From: an uncultured Spirochaetaceae bacterium
GTDB taxonomy: Bacteria; Spirochaetota; Spirochaetia; Sphaerochaetales; Sphaerochaetaceae
DNA: 48,507 nucleotides
Assembly: GCA_944392975.1 (NCBI GenBank)
Contig: CALXYN010000012.1
Location: forward strand, 1-48,507
Reading direction: 5' to 3'
Each line of letters begins with the position of its first letter. The first letter of the stretch is position 1. The position numbers were made by a program, and so were the translations under genes. Of the stretch, positions 13,240 to 46,758 are shown one piece after another. A model generated the notes under the pieces. It did no database searches and was not told where the DNA came from. It worked only from the letters and a program-made list of their open reading frames with translations.

Positions 13240-13445
13240 TCAGAAAGTCTGCGCTTCTGTTTCTGTACTGCGGGGTATCCGTATCCGGAGTTATGGATAG
13301 CTTATAGCTATGGAGAAAGCCACCAGTGCAAGGTGGCTTGATGTGACTGGCTTTCTGAGTCAGAATTTTTACTGAGGAAATCCAAAGTCTCAGTTTGTTT
13401 CGAAAACTGCGGAAAGACTAAGCTCTTAAGTATCAGCAAAGGGTG
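13240..13445. other. Non-coding stretch rich in hairpins; unidentified
   Basis: This forms most of a 288-bp gap (13164-13451). Four hairpins can be drawn: ATAGCT/AGCTAT (13298-13312), AAGCCACC/GGTGGCTT (13318-13340), TTCTG/CAGAA followed by five T (13354-13371), and a two-part stem of AGTCT-CAGTTT with AAACTG-AGACT (13386-13419). The second, read on the minus strand and followed by TTTCT, could be a terminator for the gene at 13452-14045. I do not recognise tmRNA, RNase P RNA, SRP RNA, 6S RNA or a known riboswitch here. Only very short reading frames without ribosome sites are present. Confidence 0.4.
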
Positions 13446-13451
13446 AAAATC

Positions 13452-14045
13452 TTACAGTCCTGCAATTTCCCTCAGCTGGTTTTTTGCATTTGTGAGTGTT
13501 GCCTGATATTGTGCTTCGAGTTTCTCGAGATTCTTTCTTGCAGCTTCCATGAACTCCTTGTCGCTTTCAAATGAGAGCTTAACTTCAGTCCCATATTGTC
13601 TTGAGAGTTTTTCAGATTTCTCATCAAGTATTGGCTGGTACTGCGCTTTCATCTTTTCAAAGAGGTCTTTTCTGTGAAGCGGATACTGCTTCAGAAATCC
13701 CTCAAGTTCGTTTGCAAGTCCAATTGCCTGGGCATTGTTGTCTGTTGCTATTTCTATAAGTTTCACAGCTTTCCTAAGCCTTGAATCATCCTCATCCTCT
13801 GTCTGTGGCAGTGAGAGATTCGCTTCTGCTGTTATGATCAGGGCTTCTTTTACAGCCTTGCTGTCGAGAGCTGAAAGTCCGTCCCTGAGTTCTTTTTCAT
13901 CAATCGGCTCATCATCTGCGATGAATCTTCCTGCAAGACGGCGGGCTGTATCGACATCTGTCTTGTATTTCAGTTTATTCTTATCCATCTGGATGCTCTC
14001 TGTACGTTCGAGAGCTATTTCCCATGCGCTTTTTATTTTTCCCAT
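13452..14045 (-). CDS. Conserved hypothetical cytoplasmic protein (spirochaete-type)
   Basis: The 197-residue protein is highly charged and predicted to be largely alpha-helical, with a helical C-terminal part (about 125-190, many Lys, Glu and Gln) that could form a coiled coil. It has no signal peptide, no membrane segment and no catalytic motif that I recognise. The start MGKIKSAWEIALERTESIQMDKNKL resembles a family I associate with treponemes, but I cannot name it with certainty. The ATG lacks a Shine-Dalgarno sequence; TATATT ends 6 nt upstream, so a leaderless mRNA is likely. The gene is divergent from the TRIC channel gene, with only 21 bp between the two start codons. Coding is supported by the open frame, normal composition and the promoter position; the function is unknown. 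Confidence 0.75.
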   Translation of the reverse strand: MGKIKSAWEIALERTESIQMDKNKLKYKTDVDTARRLAGRFIADDEPIDEKELRDGLSALDSKAVKEALIITAEANLSLPQTEDEDDSRLRKAVKLIEIATDNNAQAIGLANELEGFLKQYPLHRKDLFEKMKAQYQPILDEKSEKLSRQYGTEVKLSFESDKEFMEAARKNLEKLEAQYQATLTNAKNQLREIAGL

Positions 14046-14051
14046 GCCCTG

Positions 14052-14059
14052 AATATAAC
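14052..14059. promoter_or_regulatory. Overlapping divergent -10 boxes (shared bidirectional promoter)
   Basis: On the minus strand TATATT (14052-14057) lies 6 nt before the ATG at 14045. On the plus strand TATAAC (14054-14059) lies 7 nt before the ATG at 14067. The two hexamers overlap in the symmetrical TATA core, and each predicted start of transcription coincides with a start codon. Any -35 elements would lie inside the opposite gene; I see no strong ones. Confidence 0.5.
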
Positions 14060-14066
14060 GAAACTG

Positions 14067-14759
14067 ATGAAGGCCGGCTATATGCAGTGGACGGAGAATC
14101 CCTATTTATGTAGGCTACATGCTATGGACAGCGGTATCGTCTATGCTTTTGATATCTTCGGTACAGCCATCTTTGCGATAACAGGGGCTGTTAAAGGCGT
14201 CAGGAACAGGCTTGATTTCCTTGGTGTCATCGTTTTTGCTATCACGGTAGGATGCGGAGGAGGAATGCTCCGGGATGCGCTTCTTGGTATTTTCCCGGTT
14301 GCGGTCTTCTGTGATAACGCATATGTTCTCGTCTGCATTGCCATGGGTATTCTCGTATTCCTCTTAAGTCCCAGAGCCGTAGGACGCTGGGCACTCATAC
14401 AGTATCTCGATGCAATCGGACTTGGTGTTTTCACGGCTATCGGATGCGTGAAGGCTCAGGCATTGGGGCTGGGAGCCATCGGAGTAATGACAAGCGGAGT
14501 ATTCGGTGCTGTCGGAGGAGGTGTTCTCCGCGATGTTTTCTGCCATGAGATACCAATGGTCCTGACTTCGGATTTCTATGCATCTGCCTCCATTCTTGGA
14601 GGACTTCTATTTGTCGTGCTTATTGCCTGTGGTGTTTCTGGAGACATCCTCATGTATTCAACGGCACTTTTCACTACTGTGCTGAGAATGCTTGGTTATC
14701 ATTTCAAGTGGAGACTTCCTGTTGCAAGAATGGTAGGAGAGGAGAAACGTGACAGATAA
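14067..14759 (+). CDS. TRIC-type (YadS/YicG, UPF0126) membrane channel protein
   Basis: The protein has two repeats of the UPF0126/TRIC domain, each with a glycine-rich motif followed by RD: TVGCGGGMLRDALLG and GVFGAVGGGVLRDVFC. About seven membrane segments are predicted, starting at VYAFDIFGTAIFAITGAVKG. Bacterial homologues form trimeric cation channels; some are proposed to transport small molecules such as glycine. The ATG at 14067 has no ribosome site but a TATAAC box 7 nt upstream, fitting a leaderless start. Alternatives are 14082 (weak GAAGG) and 14124, where similarity to the family begins, so the first 19 residues are uncertain. The gene overlaps the next by 11 nt, so it leads a three-gene unit with alaX and the VTT protein. 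Confidence 0.88.
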   Translation: MKAGYMQWTENPYLCRLHAMDSGIVYAFDIFGTAIFAITGAVKGVRNRLDFLGVIVFAITVGCGGGMLRDALLGIFPVAVFCDNAYVLVCIAMGILVFLLSPRAVGRWALIQYLDAIGLGVFTAIGCVKAQALGLGAIGVMTSGVFGAVGGGVLRDVFCHEIPMVLTSDFYASASILGGLLFVVLIACGVSGDILMYSTALFTTVLRMLGYHFKWRLPVARMVGEEKRDR

Positions 14760-15879
14760 GCTTTATTACATAGATGGATATCTCAGGGAAACTGAAGCGA
14801 CGGTTGTTTCCGTCACTGAGAAAGGAATCATCCTCAACCGCACTGTTTTCTATCCGGAAGGAGGAGGCCAGCCTGGAGATAGAGGCTGGTTTGGTACTTT
14901 TCATATCATTGATACCCAGAAGGATGAGGATGGCAATCCTCTGCACATCATAAAAGGAGATAAGCCTTCTGTTGGTGAAAAAGCAGTTCTCCGCCTTGAT
15001 TGGGATCATCGTTTTTTCTATATGAAGGAACACAGTGCTCAGCATCTCGTCTCAGCACTTCTTTTCTCAAAGCATGGAATAGGTACTGTTGCTGTCCATC
15101 AGGGAGAGGACTTTTTCACAGTCGAGACCGATAAGGACGATATTCCGGAAGAGGTCCTCTTATGCACAGAAGATGAGGCAAATGAGGCAATCAGAGAAAA
15201 TCATGGCATAGAGCAGAGAGAGATGAGCCATGAAGAAGCTGAGGCTCTGGGTATGAGGCGCTCCATCAAAATGGAAGGCAATGTGAAAGTTGTATTCATC
15301 AAGGATCTGGATGCCGTTGCCTGTGGTGGCGTGCATCTCCATTCGACAGGCGAGATTGGTGAGCTTCAGTACTATGGATCTGAAAGAATCAGAGGCCATG
15401 TCCGTACTATGTGGAAATGCTCAGATCTTTCAGTTGCATACAGAAGGGAAAACAGGGCAATCGTGAATGCCGCATGTTCGTGTCTTTCCTCTGAGCCTGT
15501 TTCAGTATTATCTTCCATTGAAAGAATTCTTGATGAGAATTCATTATTGAAAAGAAAACTCAAGAATGCGGAAGAGAAGATTGCAGGGCTGGAACTTGAG
15601 GCACATAAGGGCACGGCTGGTGCCGTTGTATTCGGGACATCTGTTCCTGTCTCTTCTTTTGAAGATGTTCTCTCATCTCTTGGTGAGCGTAATGCCTTCA
15701 TTATTGACGCAGATGGGCGTTTCATGTTTCATGGAACAGGGGATTTGTTTAATGACCTGAAAACAGGGCTTGCTGCTTATTCGCTTCGTGGCGGTGGGCG
15801 TGAATGGTTTTACCGCGGTTCTGTAAAAGGTCCTGTCAATTCGGTGCTGGAGGAGGCACAGAGACTTTTAAATGGCTGA
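14749..15879 (+). CDS. Alanyl-tRNA editing protein AlaX (long form)
   Basis: This 376-residue protein matches the editing half of alanyl-tRNA synthetase without the synthetase: RTVFYPEGGGQPGDRG (about 29-44), the zinc motifs HSAQH (about 96-100) and CGGVH (about 193-197), then IRGHVRTMWKCSDLSVAYR. A coiled-coil stretch (about 255-285) and a DHHA1-like C-terminal domain follow, as in the long AlaX class. AlaX proteins hydrolyse Ser-tRNA(Ala), and sometimes Gly-tRNA(Ala), formed by mistake. The start is a GTG overlapping the TRIC gene by 11 nt with GAGAGGAGA upstream, and the end overlaps the VTT gene by 8 nt, so translation is probably coupled. Confidence 0.93.
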   Translation: MTDKLYYIDGYLRETEATVVSVTEKGIILNRTVFYPEGGGQPGDRGWFGTFHIIDTQKDEDGNPLHIIKGDKPSVGEKAVLRLDWDHRFFYMKEHSAQHLVSALLFSKHGIGTVAVHQGEDFFTVETDKDDIPEEVLLCTEDEANEAIRENHGIEQREMSHEEAEALGMRRSIKMEGNVKVVFIKDLDAVACGGVHLHSTGEIGELQYYGSERIRGHVRTMWKCSDLSVAYRRENRAIVNAACSCLSSEPVSVLSSIERILDENSLLKRKLKNAEEKIAGLELEAHKGTAGAVVFGTSVPVSSFEDVLSSLGERNAFIIDADGRFMFHGTGDLFNDLKTGLAAYSLRGGGREWFYRGSVKGPVNSVLEEAQRLLNG

Positions 15880-16489
15880 AGCAGAGAAAGTGGGATCTGA
15901 GGATGACAAGGATTTGCAGGAGCACAGCGATGTGCATCTGAACTGGAAAAAGATTGCTCTTATCGGGACAATTCCGATTCTTCTGATCTTTCTTGGTTTC
16001 TTCATTGTCCTGAAGTTCATTGGAGGAGAGAATTACTCGCTTGCAGTTGACTGGTTCAATGAGAAATTCGGGCTTACAGGAATCTTCCTGTATGTCTATG
16101 TGGTTGATACCCTGATTCTTCCTCTCTCTCCGGATTTTGTATTCCCGATTGTGGCATCAATGAATCCTCTGGTAGCTATTTCCGTAATAGGAACTGCGTC
16201 GGCTCTGGGAGGAATCACATCGTATGCAATCGGTCTTCTTCTGCATAAGATTCCCTTGATAAAAAGATATACAGACAAAGCTGCGGTGAAGTGGGGTGCT
16301 TATATACGCAAGTACGGCACGTTTTTTGTTATTATCGCAGGCCTTTTCCCCCTGCCGTTTTCCACAATCTGTGTTCTGGCAGGGGCATTGAAGATGGATG
16401 GAAGAAAAGTTATACCAGCAACGCTGATCAGATATATCAGAGCAACGCTCTACTTCTTCCTCTTCCGTGCTGGCCTTTTGATTATCTGA
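15872..16489 (+). CDS. VTT-domain (DedA/YqaA-like) inner membrane protein
   Basis: The 205-residue protein has a charged cytoplasmic N-terminus (about 1-28) and five or so membrane segments. The VTT pattern is visible: LPLSPDFVFPIVASMNP, then the glycine-rich TASALGGITSYAIGLLL, then a second re-entrant stretch YGTFFVIIAGLFPLPFSTICVLAGALKM with the proline-rich turn. VTT proteins of the DedA type have been linked to recycling of lipid carriers; the specific role here is unknown. The ATG overlaps the end of alaX by 8 nt with GGAGGAGGC upstream. Its 3' end overlaps the convergent purB by 8 nt; no terminator is visible on either strand there. Confidence 0.85.
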   Translation: MAEAEKVGSEDDKDLQEHSDVHLNWKKIALIGTIPILLIFLGFFIVLKFIGGENYSLAVDWFNEKFGLTGIFLYVYVVDTLILPLSPDFVFPIVASMNPLVAISVIGTASALGGITSYAIGLLLHKIPLIKRYTDKAAVKWGAYIRKYGTFFVIIAGLFPLPFSTICVLAGALKMDGRKVIPATLIRYIRATLYFFLFRAGLLII

Positions 16490-26703: not shown

Positions 26704-27735
26704 TCATGGAATCAGGAACTCGGCAAGTACTGCAAATGTTCCTGTCCTATCAGTAAGGCCCATGACAGGGTAGCTTATTGCGCTGACGGGAATCAGTGCT
26801 TCTGTATAAAGAAAGTCCAGCCTTTCGTATACTGCACCATTTTTTCTTGTGATTCCGCCATCTGTTTCGGCACTGAAATGTGTCGCTCTGTAAGCATCCA
26901 GCCATCCATTTTCTTCAAGGTATGTGGACACAGGGAACTCCATTGAGGTCCTGTATCTGAATGGAGTGAAATCTATCCAGTCCTCTCCCGATGGGGATGA
27001 GGAGGAGAGTGAGAGTATTTTCTCCTTATCCGTCATTGTCTCCGCAATTTTCTGCACCTCTGTTTTTTCTGTATCATCTCCAGAGGCAGCAAGTGCCCAT
27101 GCTTCAGCCTCTTCTGCTGTTGCTGGCAGATTGTTCTGGAATGATAGGGGTGCGATTTCCACATCCTTTGTCGATGTTATGAAAAATATTGCGGTATTCT
27201 CATTTGCTGTTTTGAGAAGTGGTCGATGGAGGATTGTTCCACCTGTAAGGGTTACAGCATCCCAGCCGGATGTTTTCGCACCTGTTATCTGATTTTCGAG
27301 AGAGCCTGTGAGAATAACAAAATCTGGAGAGACATCAGCATTCGCTCCCAGAATCCGGCGAGCATCATCTTGGCTCATTGAATCGTAACCAAGCGGGAGC
27401 AGTAGTACCTTGACTGTATTGATGCCATCCACTTCGGTGCTGTTTGTATTGAGCGGAGTATAGATATGGGGGAAGGTGAGTTCTGCAAGATTTTCAGGAT
27501 ACTCATTCACATCCGCCTTTCTCTTCATTGCTGCTCTATGCTCTGCTTCTTTCCTTGCATTCTCTATCGCTTCTGCTGATTTGTTCTTGTTTTCTTCTAC
27601 GATTGCGGCATATCTGGTTTCAGGCAGTCCCGTGACCTCGGGTACCCTGATCCTGCCGTAACCATATTCTGCTGTATATACTGCACAAGATGATAAAACC
27701 AGCGCGATGGCTGCAAAGAAAAGAAAGCGCCTCAT
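26704..27735 (-). CDS. Putative lipoprotein of unknown function
   Basis: The 343-residue protein begins MRRFLFFAAIALVLSSCAVYT, a signal peptide with a lipobox-like LSSC, so it should be lipidated at Cys17 and face the periplasm or surface. A charged helical stretch (about 45-75) follows. The rest has strand-helix alternation. Near the C-terminus, YRATHFSAETDG, then RLDFLYTEALIPVSAI and LTDRTGTFAVLAEF recall the end of endonuclease/exonuclease/phosphatase proteins (RIDYI...SDH-PV), but the catalytic His and Asp are not preserved, so an inactive relative is only a guess. Its ATG overlaps the stop of the HIT gene (ATGA). Confidence 0.75.
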   Translation of the reverse strand: MRRFLFFAAIALVLSSCAVYTAEYGYGRIRVPEVTGLPETRYAAIVEENKNKSAEAIENARKEAEHRAAMKRKADVNEYPENLAELTFPHIYTPLNTNSTEVDGINTVKVLLLPLGYDSMSQDDARRILGANADVSPDFVILTGSLENQITGAKTSGWDAVTLTGGTILHRPLLKTANENTAIFFITSTKDVEIAPLSFQNNLPATAEEAEAWALAASGDDTEKTEVQKIAETMTDKEKILSLSSSSPSGEDWIDFTPFRYRTSMEFPVSTYLEENGWLDAYRATHFSAETDGGITRKNGAVYERLDFLYTEALIPVSAISYPVMGLTDRTGTFAVLAEFLIP

Positions 27736-28133
27736 ATCTTCAGCAGTTCTCCATATTTTCCCATCTCGCCATCTGCATACTTTTCCTTGTTGAATACAGG
27801 TGTTTTTCCATCTCCGGAGAATCTCGGTATAACATGAATATGAAGGTGCGGAACCTCCTGTCCGGAAGCTGGGCTGTTGTTGATCATGATGTTTGTGCCC
27901 TCAGCTCCAAGAACTTCCCTCTGTTTCCTGTCAATTTTCCTTGCCACTTCCATCATATGGGAAAGCGTCTCCATCGGTACATCTGTGAATGTCGGATAGC
28001 ACTTTCTTGATATTACAAGAGCATGTCCTTTTGAGACTGGGTTGATATCCAGGATAACAATACAGCTTTCGTCTTCATAAAGACGTGTTGACGGTATTTC
28101 GCCATTGATAATCATTTCAAATACAGTTGCCAT
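27732..28133 (-). CDS. HIT-family nucleotide-binding hydrolase
   Basis: The 133-residue protein is a typical histidine-triad protein. It begins TVFEMIINGEIPSTRLYEDESCIVILDINPVSKGHALVISRKCYPTF and reaches the active site in PHLHIHVIPRFSGD (HxHxHxx, about 99-105). Hint-type proteins hydrolyse AMP-lysine or AMP-N-linked and related adenylates in the cytoplasm. The ATG at 28133 has no ribosome site; a TAGTAT box ends 6 nt upstream, so the mRNA should begin at the start codon. It leads a unit with the lipoprotein gene (4-nt overlap) and is divergent from fusA. Confidence 0.93.
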   Translation of the reverse strand: MATVFEMIINGEIPSTRLYEDESCIVILDINPVSKGHALVISRKCYPTFTDVPMETLSHMMEVARKIDRKQREVLGAEGTNIMINNSPASGQEVPHLHIHVIPRFSGDGKTPVFNKEKYADGEMGKYGELLKI

Positions 28134-31855: not shown

Positions 31856-32648
31856 CCCATTTGTCTCCCTGCTGCAAGAGCTCTCTCATTCGCTTTGAGG
31901 CAGCTGCGCTTTTACGACCTTCTTCCCTTGCTTTCACATATTCTGCAGCTTGCTTCTCTGCATCAGGGATGTCTGTGATATATGTTATCTTTCTGTTTTC
32001 CGCGCTTCCTCTTGATACAGTACATTCATATCCGGCAGCAATGAAAACCGCTGCATCATCATCAGCTTCAAGACCAGGGAATTTGTCATAGGCATCCAGA
32101 ATTTCGTTCTTGCGGAATATCTGGGGAGTCTGCACAGTAATCAGGGACGAACGGTCAACATTCTCTGCAATCAGTCCGTCTTTGCCGAGCTTTTTCACGG
32201 CATCTGTTACTCTGAGGGCAGGAACAGCGCCTCCAGTGACAGTTGCTGCAGCAAGCGTTCTTATTATCAAGCTTTCATCGACAAAAGGTCTTGCTCCATC
32301 ATGGATGGCTATGTAATCAAAAGGAACTGAGAGGTCTCTCAATTCATCAAGCGCGTTTTTTACGGACTCTTTCCTTGTCATTCCTCCGGGGATGATCAGG
32401 AAAGGAATTGATGAAATGTCTGCCAGATCCTCGAGCGCTACAATTGTCTCGTCTTCGGAACCGGAAGGGCATGTCACGATGACAGCACTCAGCCCTGGAA
32501 CATTGAAAAATGGTTTTGTCGCTCTGTAAAGCACAGTATGCCCATCTATCGATAGATATTCCTTTTTGACATGTTCATTCACATTAGCTGAAAAGCGGGA
32601 TGATGTACCCGCTGCCGTAATTATCACTGCAAAAGGTGGTATGCTCAT
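31833..32648 (-). CDS. ispD: 2-C-methyl-D-erythritol 4-phosphate cytidylyltransferase
   Basis: The 271 residues include the CTP-binding start VIITAAGTSSRFSANVNEHVKKEYLSIDGHTVLYRA (about 8-43), GGMTRKESVKNAL, the catalytic region YIAIHDGARPFVDESLI, ALRVTDAVKKL, VQTPQIFRKNEILDAY and DDAAVFIAAGYECTVSRGSAENRKITYITD. It transfers CMP to methylerythritol 4-phosphate in the non-mevalonate route. The C-terminal ~35 residues (KQAAEYVKAREEGRKSAAASKRM...) are an extension of unknown use and include the region that overlaps ispF. The ATG overlaps the carD stop (ATGA). Its ribosome site is not obvious, so translation probably depends on coupling to carD. Confidence 0.95.
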   Translation of the reverse strand: MSIPPFAVIITAAGTSSRFSANVNEHVKKEYLSIDGHTVLYRATKPFFNVPGLSAVIVTCPSGSEDETIVALEDLADISSIPFLIIPGGMTRKESVKNALDELRDLSVPFDYIAIHDGARPFVDESLIIRTLAAATVTGGAVPALRVTDAVKKLGKDGLIAENVDRSSLITVQTPQIFRKNEILDAYDKFPGLEADDDAAVFIAAGYECTVSRGSAENRKITYITDIPDAEKQAAEYVKAREEGRKSAAASKRMRELLQQGDKWDESGNRE

Positions 32649-33133
32649 TTTTCGAGTTTGGCGAAGATTTTCTTCTTCATTTCCTCCGAGGCTATTCCTA
32701 GCACGGATGAGGTCTCATCGACAAGGATGGTAAGTGCACTGTCATACAGTTTTCGCTCCTGTACAGGAAGTTCCTTGATCTTTGAGCGCCTGTACAGGGA
32801 GTTCACAACCTGTGCAACAGCCCCCAGAGTGCCTTTCTTCATCAGTTCCTGATTCACCAGCAGCCTCTGTTTCCAGTCCATCCCTCTTGTTTCCTGTTTC
32901 TCGGAGAGCGAAGAGAGAGCTTTCTTTGCTTCCGTGGCAGACGCCAGATGCCTCAGTCCGAGAGCTGAGGCGTTATCTACGGGCAATAGCACATCCATGT
33001 CGGAAGCAGAAATCTGCACCCGATAGTATTCCTTTTCCCTTCTGGTCTCTCGACCGAGAATACAACCGACGCCCTGCATTGGATATACTACAGTGTCGCC
33101 GATTCTGAATACGGATTTTTCTGTGCTATTCAT
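32645..33133 (-). CDS. CarD/CdnL-like RNA polymerase-binding regulator
   Basis: The 162-residue protein has the CarD/TRCF RNA polymerase-interacting domain at the N-terminus: FRIGDTVVYPMQGVGCILGRETRREKEYYRVQISASDMDVLLPVDNASALGLRHLAS (about 10-65), followed by a helical C-terminal domain (about 70-160) that in CarD contacts promoter DNA. CarD proteins stabilise open complexes at rRNA and other promoters. The ATG has no Shine-Dalgarno sequence; an extended -10 TGGTAGAAT ends 6 nt before it, so the mRNA should be leaderless. It heads a carD-ispD-ispF unit. Confidence 0.92.
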   Translation of the reverse strand: MNSTEKSVFRIGDTVVYPMQGVGCILGRETRREKEYYRVQISASDMDVLLPVDNASALGLRHLASATEAKKALSSLSEKQETRGMDWKQRLLVNQELMKKGTLGAVAQVVNSLYRRSKIKELPVQERKLYDSALTILVDETSSVLGIASEEMKKKIFAKLEK

Positions 33134-42706: not shown

Positions 42707-43691
42707 GAGAGTAACACTTTCCGATGTGGCTGAAAGAGCAGGTGTTTCCAAGGCCACGGTATCCGCAGTCCTGAGTGGCAAGGCAGGGAAGAGCATCCGC
42801 GTAAGCGAGACCCGTATGATGCGGGTCTTCGCTGCGGCAAATGCACTGGGCTATGTCCCCAATACGGCAGCTCAGCAGCTTAAGTCCGGTGATGATAACC
42901 ATATCATCGCTGTGTTCACTTACGAGAATATGTTCCCCGCAGATCCCAAGAGCGAGTATTATCTCTTTTTTGCCGGTATCCAGCAGGAAGCGGAGAGGGA
43001 AGGCTATGATATCCTTATTCTAAATAACTGGGCAAAAGAGAAATCCAGAAGTTCCCGTATCCGTCTGGCCTCTGGTGCAATAATGATTGGTGTCACCAGA
43101 GATGACATGCATATAACAGGACTTGTGAAGCAACAGTTTCCTCTGGTATTTGTTGGAAGAAGGGAGATAGGAAAAGGACTTCCTGTTAACTTCGTCTCGT
43201 TTGATTACTTCCGCGCAGTCGATGATATTGTACGCATAGTCTCCAGATTTTCAGACCGCCTCATTTACATCTCTTCTCGGCTATCTAATGCAGAGCCTTC
43301 CGCTGATAAGAGCCTCTATCTTCATCAATCCTGCTCTGATCATGGAATTACAATAGAGGACGTGCTGATAGAGAATTCCGTTACGGAGGAAAGCCTTAAG
43401 AAAGTCCTATCCTCTAAAGTCGTCATATTTGACAGACTCTTCATCGCAGACCTCTTCACCCCAGTCTTCAAGGAACGGAACTTAGTTATCGGCAAGGATG
43501 TTTTCGGAGCTATTCTTGAGGATGACTGGACAGAATCCCACGAGGAATGGACAAGCTGGGAGAATCGTCGTATGGAGCTTGGAGCCCTTGCTGTTAAGAG
43601 ACTTATCGCGTTTCTTTCCGGAAAGGATGTTGATGCGGGAAAAATGGTGGAGATGAATGTGGTCGAGCGCCTCAGCACATCAGGTGTGTAG
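42699..43691 (+). CDS. LacI-family transcriptional regulator of the sugar ABC operon
   Basis: The 330-residue protein starts at a TTG that overlaps the oxidoreductase stop by 8 nt, with GGAG about 7 nt upstream; no ATG fits better. The helix-turn-helix is VTLSDVAERAGVSKATVSAVLSGKAGKSIRVSE (about 5-37) and the hinge follows in NTAAQQLKSGDDN. The C-terminal ligand domain begins IIAVFTYENMFPADPKSEYY. It most likely binds the 20-bp inverted repeat at 38280-38299 and is released by the imported sugar. It ends overlapping the convergent SPL-like gene by 12 nt. Confidence 0.92.
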   Translation: MNKRVTLSDVAERAGVSKATVSAVLSGKAGKSIRVSETRMMRVFAAANALGYVPNTAAQQLKSGDDNHIIAVFTYENMFPADPKSEYYLFFAGIQQEAEREGYDILILNNWAKEKSRSSRIRLASGAIMIGVTRDDMHITGLVKQQFPLVFVGRREIGKGLPVNFVSFDYFRAVDDIVRIVSRFSDRLIYISSRLSNAEPSADKSLYLHQSCSDHGITIEDVLIENSVTEESLKKVLSSKVVIFDRLFIADLFTPVFKERNLVIGKDVFGAILEDDWTESHEEWTSWENRRMELGALAVKRLIAFLSGKDVDAGKMVEMNVVERLSTSGV

Positions 43692-44927
43692 CTTATCTCC
43701 GTAAACCTTGCTGAAATAGTGTTTTTTCATGTCTTCTTCAAATTCCCTGTCACAGGAATATTCTCTGCCGAGTACTGGCAGCCATAGAGAAGGATCTTCC
43801 ATACAAAGATAGAAAAAGACATTGTTTCTGAATATTTCGCTGAAGGATGAGAATACATGCGAGAACATCTTTTGCTTCACGCTTAGAGGATAGGAGAATT
43901 TTCCTGCAGCTGGAGTGAGTTCCATTTCGAGCACCTTGCTTTCATTCCCATTCTCCCTTAAATGCCTGAGCACAGATTTTGTGAAGGTGAGAGTGCCGAT
44001 GCTGATCATGCAGATATCCTCAGGAGAGAATTCTCTTTCAATAATATCTGCAATCGATGCATACTCATCTTGCCATCCTTTGAAATAAACCATCGGATGA
44101 ATATGGAAACCGACAAGTGATCCGTTATCTCTGGCTCTTGCCGCATTCTCTATACGTCTTTCCAGACTGGCGGTGAGGTGTTCTTCCTTTTCAATTATAG
44201 TAGGTGCATTTAGCGACCATGTGAAAATCATGTTGCGAGGATACTTCTTTCCTGTGAACACATCCCTCATGCTTTTGCTTTTCAGCTCAATGATGATGTC
44301 AGGATGAGCTTTTGCAAAGACAGAAAGCGCGGATAACGTACCATAATCGTCTCCAAGAAGAATCGAATCTGAAGCCTGGCCTGTGCCAATATGCCATACA
44401 TCCGGAGAGAGGTTGAGATTCATCAGTTTTTCCTTCAGGCCAGAGACTGCATGAACCTCTTTCTCACTGTAAAATGCCTGAACAGAACAGTAGGAACAGG
44501 AGAATGCACACTGTTCTACAGGATCGATGGTCGTCAGTTTGCAGCATCTTGTTTTCTCGCCATCTACAGGACATGGACAGCGGCCAGGAACTATTGGCTT
44601 GTCAATGCCGATTGTCCTGTATTTGAGTCGCGGATTGACCGAGGGAAAGAAAGATGAGTAATCAGTTTCTCCTTTCCTGAGAGTTTCCATGTAACGCCTT
44701 TGCTGGAGTATGTAGGAATCCCCTTTTCGGCCATCTTTCCTGCTGTCTATTGCTGTGTAATCTGCAATGGAGTAGAAAGGCTTTTCCTTCCATTGCCTCA
44801 GATCAGATTCATCCTTGGCAATCTCAAGCTTCTGGCTTTCTGAGAAATGATAGCGTTTGAAGAGATTCTCAAGGGAGGTTCTCATGTTTTCTGAAAATGA
44901 TGACAATAGCTCCTGCAGTGCTGGCAT
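43680..44927 (-). CDS. Radical SAM protein of the spore-photoproduct-lyase-like group
   Basis: The 415-residue protein has the radical SAM cysteine motif EQCAFSCSYC (Cys140, 144, 147; CxxxCxxC). After it come a WHIGTGQASDSILLGDDYG segment, IIIELKSKS, MIFTWSLNAP, then HLTASLERRIENAARARDNGSLVGFHIHPMVYFKGWQDEY. This order agrees with the SPL-type proteins of the SplB family. Two Cys pairs before the motif (CPCP, CC) could bind another cluster. SplB repairs the UV product of spore DNA, but this organism shows no sign of sporulation, so the substrate is open. The start at 44927 is leaderless (TATAAT 7 nt upstream); an alternative ATG is at 44885. It is divergent from uvrC, 52 bp apart. Confidence 0.85.
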   Translation of the reverse strand: MPALQELLSSFSENMRTSLENLFKRYHFSESQKLEIAKDESDLRQWKEKPFYSIADYTAIDSRKDGRKGDSYILQQRRYMETLRKGETDYSSFFPSVNPRLKYRTIGIDKPIVPGRCPCPVDGEKTRCCKLTTIDPVEQCAFSCSYCSVQAFYSEKEVHAVSGLKEKLMNLNLSPDVWHIGTGQASDSILLGDDYGTLSALSVFAKAHPDIIIELKSKSMRDVFTGKKYPRNMIFTWSLNAPTIIEKEEHLTASLERRIENAARARDNGSLVGFHIHPMVYFKGWQDEYASIADIIEREFSPEDICMISIGTLTFTKSVLRHLRENGNESKVLEMELTPAAGKFSYPLSVKQKMFSHVFSSFSEIFRNNVFFYLCMEDPSLWLPVLGREYSCDREFEEDMKKHYFSKVYGDKLHT

Positions 44928-44934
44928 ATGGGAG

Positions 44935-44972
44935 ATTATAGCGTTGTCAAAGATGTTTAGTGAAGCTATCCT
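44935..44972. promoter_or_regulatory. Interleaved divergent promoters of the SPL-like gene and uvrC
   Basis: Plus strand: TTGTCA (44944-44949), 17-nt spacer, TATCCT (44967-44972), then 7 nt to the uvrC ATG at 44980. Minus strand: TATAAT (44935-44940), 7 nt to the ATG at 44927. The two elements lie 3 nt apart, so RNA polymerase bound to one would block the other. Both mRNAs should lack a leader. Confidence 0.68.
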
Positions 44973-44979
44973 CTCAACT

Positions 44980-46758
44980 ATGGCAGAAAGTGCAAGAGAT
45001 ATAGCTAGAAAGCTTCCGGATAACCCTGGATGCTATCTGATGAAGAATAAGGAAGGTACAGTAATCTACGTCGGTAAGGCAAAGAACCTCAAGCGGCGTG
45101 TGAATTCTTATTTTCTGCCTAACCGCAATGCAAAGACATCAGCTCTTGTAGAGAAAATCGCCAATATTGACTATGTCATCACAGGCAATGAGTATGAGGC
45201 TCTGATTCTTGAGAACAATCTCATCAAGAAATATAACCCTCATTACAACATTTTGCTGAAGGATGGGAAGAGTTATCCTGTGATAAGGATCACCAAAGAG
45301 CCTTTTCCCAGAGTATTCAAGACTCGAAGAGTGATAAAAGACGGATCAAGGTACTATGGTCCGTACCCGGATGGTTCAAGGCTGGATATCTACCTTGATA
45401 TGGTCGAGGATAATTATCCTCTCCGCCATTGTGCTGGTCCTCTGAAACCCAGAAAGACCCCATGTCTTTACTACCATATCCATAAATGCTCCGGTCCATG
45501 CATTGGAGCTATAAATGAGAAAGATTACGGGCAGTATATAAAGCAGATTGAATCCTTTCTTGAAGGTGATGACAGCTCGATGATCAGGAAAGCGGAAAAA
45601 GAGATGCAGGAGGCAGCCAAGGCTCTTGATTTCGAGACTGCAGCCAGAAAACGCGATCAGATTAAGGCTCTGACTGTAATGCAGAAGAATCAGATGGTTG
45701 AGGAATTCTCCTCTGATGACAGCCGGGACTATGCCGCAATTGAGATGCGTAGCTATCTTTGTACCATTTCAATCATGCAGTTCCGCTCGGGTCGGCTTAT
45801 CGGTAAAGCCCTTTACAGAGCAGAGTGCCTTGGTGATGAGACAGAGACGCTTTTTTCCTTTCTTGTACAGTATTACAGTGATGGTGATACATTGCCTCAG
45901 GAAATATTTGTCTCCTGTGATATCGATACTGAACTCTTGTCAAAGTATTTCAATGATGAGCTGAAATCGCCTGTTTATATCTCTGTTCCGCGTGAAGGAA
46001 AGCATTACAGAATTCTCCGCATGGCAAGTGAGAATGCTTCCCGTGATGTCGAGAAAAGGCTTAAGGAACTGGATAATACACCGGCTCTTGAAGTGCTTCA
46101 GAAAGAACTTTGCCTTCCAGTTCTTCCCCGTCATATTGAGGGTTTTGATATCGCACAGCTTTCAGGAAAGTACACAGTGGCTTCCCTGATTGTTTTCCGT
46201 GACGGCAATCCATCCAATAAGGAGTATCGTCATTTCTCGATGAAATCACTTGATGGCAAGATTGATGATTTCCAGTCGATGCGAGAGGCAGTTGGCAGAC
46301 GTTATCAGAGACTTCTGAACGAAGGAGCTGAGATGCCTGATCTGCTTATGGTTGATGGCGGAAAAGGGCAGGTAAGTGCGGCTCTTGATTCTCTCTCTGC
46401 TCTTGGTCTTGATTTTCCTGTGGTGGGACTTGCGAAGGAACATGAGGAGATCGTTTTTCCTGGAGACAGAGAATCATTGCTTCTTGAACATAGCAATCCG
46501 GGCTTGAGGGTTCTTATTGCAGTCCGCGATGAATGCCACCGTTTTGCAACATCATTCAATCAGCGGATGAGAAGCCGTGAAGCCTCTTTCTCTTTGCTGG
46601 AATCAATAGACGGCATCGGACCGGAACGATCGAAGAGAATCATGAAGACATATGGTTCAATAGAAGCAATTCTCTCTCTTTCTGCAGAGGAATTAGCAAA
46701 AGGTGCATCCATTCCTCTTCCTGTTGCGGAGAGAGTGCTTCACAAGCTCAATTTCTAG
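44980..46758 (+). CDS. uvrC: Excinuclease ABC subunit C
   Basis: The start at 44980 follows a good promoter; the frame is open further upstream but crosses that promoter. The 592-residue protein has the GIY-YIG nuclease domain (GCYLMKNKEGTVIYVGKAKNLKRRVNSYF, about 17-45), the UVR motif for UvrB contact (IRKAEKEMQEAAKALDFETAARKRDQIKAL, about 204-233), the RNase H-like nuclease (HIEGFDIAQLSGKYTVAS, then LLMVDGGKGQVSAALDSL), RDECHRFATSFNQRMRSR, and C-terminal helix-hairpin-helix repeats (SIDGIGPERSKRIMKTYGSIEAI). It makes both cuts in nucleotide excision repair. It converges with holA and shares a CTAG with it at the stops. Confidence 0.97.
   Translation: MAESARDIARKLPDNPGCYLMKNKEGTVIYVGKAKNLKRRVNSYFLPNRNAKTSALVEKIANIDYVITGNEYEALILENNLIKKYNPHYNILLKDGKSYPVIRITKEPFPRVFKTRRVIKDGSRYYGPYPDGSRLDIYLDMVEDNYPLRHCAGPLKPRKTPCLYYHIHKCSGPCIGAINEKDYGQYIKQIESFLEGDDSSMIRKAEKEMQEAAKALDFETAARKRDQIKALTVMQKNQMVEEFSSDDSRDYAAIEMRSYLCTISIMQFRSGRLIGKALYRAECLGDETETLFSFLVQYYSDGDTLPQEIFVSCDIDTELLSKYFNDELKSPVYISVPREGKHYRILRMASENASRDVEKRLKELDNTPALEVLQKELCLPVLPRHIEGFDIAQLSGKYTVASLIVFRDGNPSNKEYRHFSMKSLDGKIDDFQSMREAVGRRYQRLLNEGAEMPDLLMVDGGKGQVSAALDSLSALGLDFPVVGLAKEHEEIVFPGDRESLLLEHSNPGLRVLIAVRDECHRFATSFNQRMRSREASFSLLESIDGIGPERSKRIMKTYGSIEAILSLSAEELAKGASIPLPVAERVLHKLNF

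Follow-up and report, generated by a model that had tools for sequence, protein, structure and literature searches.

Where two divergent promoters of Escherichia coli really have a −10 element in common, their basal activity is too low for polymerases to compete, and one side is repressed only when the other is strongly activated (PMC12825309). Leaderless genes are also already known in spirochaetes. They were predicted in 6 of 18 spirochaete genomes, where they make up 1.8–6.9% of genes (Zheng et al., 2011, PMC3160421), and a map of transcription start sites (TSSs) in Leptospira interrogans contains 184 genes at 30°C and 170 at 37°C whose TSS coincides with the start codon (PMC5243855).

The window analyzed here is a stretch of 48,507 nucleotides from an uncultured Spirochaetaceae bacterium, in which a DUF6657 gene on the minus strand and a TRIC gene on the plus strand are transcribed divergently. 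The genus of the relatives compared, Candidatus Ornithospirochaeta, which owes its name to a chicken gut study (PMC8035907), includes Candidatus Ornithospirochaeta stercoripullorum and Ca. O. stercoravium. The initial annotation described only 21 bp, GCCCTGAATATAACGAAACTG (14046–14066), between the minus-strand ATG (14045–14043) and a plus-strand ATG (14067–14069), with two overlapping −10 boxes on a common TATA core: TATATT on the minus strand (14057–14052), 6 nt from the DUF6657 ATG, and TATAAC on the plus strand (14054–14059), 7 nt from the ATG at 14067. All of these letters were verified, and the divergent orientation and the very compact promoter region are supported as well. The letters were right but one gene start was wrong, and therefore so was the architecture. 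Judging from the comparisons given below, the region very probably holds, in 78 bp, two independent back-to-back sigma-70-type promoters, a compact pair of ordinary promoters from which both genes are probably expressed as leaderless messages. No Rfam family was found in the window.

The plus-strand ORF (14067–14759, 230 aa) had been read from its 5′-most ATG. The two-repeat PF03458 (Gly_transporter) domain was recognized in it in two stretches (7.7e-40; 135 bits against a gathering score of 23.5), beginning at residue 27. In a search of 60 genomes, a TRIC homologue was found in all but one of the other same-genus genomes; these relatives align from about residue 3–20 of the long ORF, most of them from 11–20, and opposite M20 they nearly always have a start codon, MDSGIVYAFDIF or similar. 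Alignments with the TRIC chains of the PDB (best match 2e-31) begin at residue 22–27 of the query and at residue 5–7 of the chains themselves. Several genus relatives carry stop codons in the stretch before M20, many others have stops or frameshifts within 14067–14123, and the nearest relative found (L071; TRIC 95% identical) lacks an ATG at the position of 14067. Because of the onset of homology in relatives and solved structures, together with the missing ATG in L071, the start codon of TRIC is placed at 14124. The predicted gene (14124–14759, plus strand) encodes 211 aa beginning MDSGIVYAFD. On the same grounds, codons 1–19 of the long ORF (MKAGYMQWTENPYLCRLHA, 14067–14123) are a spurious in-frame extension made of intergenic DNA, in which the real TRIC promoter lies. 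In four relatives (L009, L012, L013, and L016), an ATG with an open frame does occur 17–18 bp from the DUF6657 start; we take it as chance because it is not at the position of 14067 and many other relatives have a broken frame.

With TRIC starting at 14124, the predicted intergenic region spans 14046–14123, which is 78 bp, not 21. Thus, the 21-bp gap stands as a run of letters and fails as a gene boundary, TRIC homology being found only from residue ~20–25, and the suggestion that it is one of the smallest bidirectional promoters falls with it. The plus-strand start had been placed 57 bases too far upstream, so a single tiny shared promoter is not what the region would contain.

The DUF6657 gene (PF20362; 13452–14045, minus strand, 197 aa; 38.8 bits against a gathering score of 27, 1.2e-09) presents no such difficulty. 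Its homologues align from M1 (MG[KR]I[KR]SA), all of them in the genus and most in other families of the class, and the start codon at 14045–14043 is safe by this alignment. Its −10 box, TATATT (14052–14057, minus strand), lies 6 nt before the ATG, which places the predicted TSS on the A of the start codon, and a −35-like box, TAGCCG (14075–14080, minus strand), stands upstream with a 17-bp spacer. Among 31 genus loci, 26 have TATATT, TATACT, or TATAAT at a distance of 6 or 7 nt upstream of the DUF6657 start and three more have AATAAT at 6 nt, giving 29 with a −10 box at 6–7 nt. These last three loci read TTGACA-N17-AATAAT-N6-ATG, a full consensus promoter with its expected start at the A of the ATG. 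Most close relatives, like the window, have TAGCCG, TAGCCA, TAGTCA, or a similar hexamer at the −35 position with a spacer of exactly 17, and TAG[CT]C stands at a fixed distance of 18 nt in most close relatives. On these alignments, the minus-strand −10 box is conserved far above chance.

Leaderlessness of DUF6657 is not universal: the remaining two of the 31 loci, both in distant members of the genus, have a Shine-Dalgarno site before the gene instead, and a Shine-Dalgarno-like site precedes it in most other families of the class. In a locus of another family (L143, G057), DUF6657 is preceded by TATATT-CAAATC-ATG and is leaderless by position; its leaderlessness may have arisen more than once. 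At the other end of the gene, a hairpin at 13312–13335 (AAGCCACC...GGTGGCTT), between DUF6657 and a MATE gene, is possibly its terminator.

Once the ATG is corrected, a second promoter comes into view in the TRIC direction. It consists of a −35 box, TGGACG (14088–14093, plus strand), a 17-bp spacer, and a −10 box, TAGGCT (14111–14116, plus strand), 7 nt before the ATG at 14124; this TGGACG-N17-TAGGCT (14088–14116) has its −10 box 53 bp from that of DUF6657. In TRIC upstream regions anchored at the corrected ATG, TANN[CT]T (e.g., TAGGCT, TAGTCT, TATCCT, or TATGCT) was present in 37 of 38, lying 6–10 nt before the ATG in 36 and, in the 37th (L010), also 10 nt before that locus's own ATG. TGGAC with a spacer of exactly 17 precedes the −10 box in 18 loci, and 29 of 37 loci have a −35 box matching TTGACA at four or more of six positions, whereas such a match was reached in 16 of 222 controls with shifted placement. 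The loci counted for both promoters are related sequences, not independent events, and a stronger argument than the raw counts is that the spacers stay constant despite the varying total length of the DUF6657–TRIC intergenic region (77–107 bp in most relatives, 158 bp in L006, and 39 bp in L054). In the window itself, the −35 boxes match the consensus at only 3/6 and 4/6 positions, and a generic sigma-70 scan found no site at the region at its threshold of 9/12, which is above what these boxes reach. An inverted repeat, ATGTAG-G-CTACAT (14108–14120), was considered as an operator and set aside, since it is only partly kept in relatives.

Each gene thus has its own −35 and −10 boxes with ~17-bp spacers that are conserved in relatives, and at the level of sequence the boxes are kept when the genes part. 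TRIC keeps its box in six loci where DUF6657 is not adjacent (L005, L020, L021, L022, L029, and L074), DUF6657 keeps its own in three where TRIC is not adjacent (L034, L048, and L058), and in L006, where an insertion between the promoters has brought the region to 158 bp, both are intact. A core common to both genes would be lost on such splitting. In addition, the two conserved −10 boxes are separate (14052–14057 and 14111–14116), and the predicted TSSs at ~14045 and ~14124 do not have the spacing of about 10, 18, or 23 bp of shared promoters.

The reading put forward at first, in which a pseudo-symmetric −10 core shared by both genes drives them from the 21 bp with TRIC starting at 14067, we now consider extremely improbable, although the letters exist as described, four relatives have the open ATG mentioned above, and in approximately half of the relatives some plus-strand TANNNT overlaps the DUF6657 −10 box. 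TRIC homology begins at 14124, the ATG at 14067 is missing in the nearest relative and the extension is broken elsewhere, and even in loci without an adjacent DUF6657, TRIC retains a conserved promoter of another sequence. While the minus-strand box is kept in near relatives, the plus-strand box is not: at the place of TATAAC they read TATATC, TATAGT, TATAGC, TATAAT, TATATT, or another hexamer. The last T of a −10 box is among the two bases that matter most in this element of sigma-70 promoters, and TATAAC has no T at position 6. Weak divergent initiation is possible in those relatives with an overlapping TANNNT and is not expected in this genome. The closest thing to the shared core first proposed was seen in L054, a distant genus member (G011), where TATAAT (minus strand, 6 nt before the DUF6657 ATG) and TATACT (plus strand) overlap in a 39-bp gap; a separate TAGGCT-like box for TRIC was not found in that locus.

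A mixed arrangement, in which 14088–14116 is the main TRIC promoter and the TATA core of DUF6657 adds some weak RNA in the TRIC direction as a Warman-type side activity, also seems unlikely. Several relatives do have TATAAT or TATAGT on the plus strand at this core, and in E. coli 19% of the RNAs detected arise by divergent initiation at symmetric −10 elements (PMC12825309), but the window has TATAAC as its hexamer here and lacks the symmetric heptamer TANNNTA. We regard it as very unlikely that a regulator binds the region and couples both genes, e.g., at GGCTATA/TGGAC between the −10 boxes. The middle stretch is indeed conserved in close relatives; however, the conserved letters are those of the two −35 boxes, the separation of which varies, and each promoter survives without the other. 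Two separate promoters, back to back, remain by far the preferred reading.

The initial annotation also called both genes leaderless, and this is probably right, the placement of the −10 box fitting DUF6657 and, at the corrected start, TRIC. The signature is genome-wide. Among 710 ORFs taken from their 5′-most ATG (1.12 Mb of the 2.07-Mb assembly), 77 have TANNNT at a spacing of exactly 6 nt from the ATG, whereas spacings further upstream have a mean of 14.5 ORFs each (range 7–21). None of these 77 genes has a Shine-Dalgarno-like site, vs. 51% of all genes, and their −35 positions match at no fewer than four of six bases in 29 of 77, vs. 15 of 154 shifted placements. We estimate the leaderless excess at ~9% of the ATG-start genes of this genome. 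The peak was also present in smaller genus samples (10/57 in G020 and 6/61 in G026 and G004 together); it was weak in G034 and not clear in four other families of the class. With its spacing of 6, DUF6657 falls exactly on the peak; TRIC, with 7, is one off it (26 genes at this spacing against a background of ~15). Because the distance from −10 box to ATG varies between 6 and 10 nt for TRIC in relatives, its message may carry 0–3 nt before the ATG. No Shine-Dalgarno site precedes 14045 (minus strand) or 14124 (plus strand), and both genes carry the TA-led signature. Two more minus-strand ORFs of the window have it, 32645–33133 (TAGAAT-N6-ATG) and 27732–28133 (TAGTAT-N6-ATG).

In the arrangement that we propose, two non-overlapping promoters stand back to back in 14046–14123 with their −35 boxes 7 bp apart. 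The minus-strand promoter would fire DUF6657, with a transcript start that we infer on the A of the start codon or no more than one base from it, and the plus-strand promoter would fire TRIC from a start predicted at the ATG at 14124 or 1–3 nt before it. Both messages, having no usable leader or Shine-Dalgarno site, would presumably be translated by the leaderless route. Downstream (14749–16489), TRIC overlaps an AlaX-type alanyl-tRNA editing gene (GTG start) by 11 nt, which in turn overlaps a gene resembling, by eye, a DedA-type membrane protein; TRIC would thus be the head of a probable three-gene operon with the AlaX-type and DedA-like genes.

With predicted starts ~79 bp apart, the case for mutual exclusion of the two genes at initiation is weaker than first claimed. 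If the footprint of a polymerase extends to about −55, the two would overlap here, and if it extends to about −40, they would just abut. Some interference between the two promoters is possible on this geometry, and strict exclusion at initiation is not implied. In three other sampled divergent leaderless pairs of this genome, the gap is exactly 77 bp, compared with 78 bp for DUF6657/TRIC. A preferred packing at 77–78 bp was considered and rejected: in 40 genus genomes, paired signatures at gaps of 72, 76, 77, 78, and 82 bp numbered 13, 23, 14, 14, and 12, and reversed-pattern controls 6, 2, 1, 5, and 0, respectively, so that they are enriched at every gap tested, with no peak there. The shared-core pattern CATN5TANNNTAN5ATG (17-bp gap) occurred at 96 sites vs. 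70 for its control, little above chance. These fixed-gap counts, which are mechanical, made without gene calls, and summed over tables, suggest that the genus favors paired separate promoters, not shared cores. The window contains another short divergent pair (43680–44927, minus strand; 44980–46758, plus strand), in whose 52-bp gap (44928–44979) TATAAT and TATCCT each lie 7 nt before an ATG, with the starts as annotated. A broader view, that about one gene in ten is leaderless across the genus and that divergent leaderless pairs of less than ~80 bp recur there, with abutting and perhaps interfering polymerases that let intergenic length itself tune expression, seems unlikely.

The result is mainly a correction: the choice of the 5′-most ATG hid a promoter in a false N-terminal extension and so mimicked a 21-bp bidirectional promoter. 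In choosing gene starts in this genus, ORF length serves less well than a TANNNT box 6 nt upstream, and the genome-wide leaderless signature should help to annotate these gut spirochaetes, a genus that is known for the most part through metagenomes.

Compared with the TA-led leaderless genes described previously (PMC3160421; PMC5243855), the genes here have the same TANNNT ~12 bp before the start codon and no Shine-Dalgarno site, while they are predicted from sequence only, and the ~9% found is slightly above the range of Spirochaetes, the methods being different. With the bidirectional promoters built on symmetric −10 elements (Warman et al., 2021; NAR 2026, PMC12825309), the locus shares compact divergent initiation, but here the two genes have separate −10 and −35 boxes and the predicted TSSs are ~79 bp apart, not 10, 18, or 23. 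With ordinary back-to-back divergent promoters, it shares the two non-overlapping −35/−10 sets facing away from each other, and it differs from them in being unusually short, because both genes would be without a 5′ leader.
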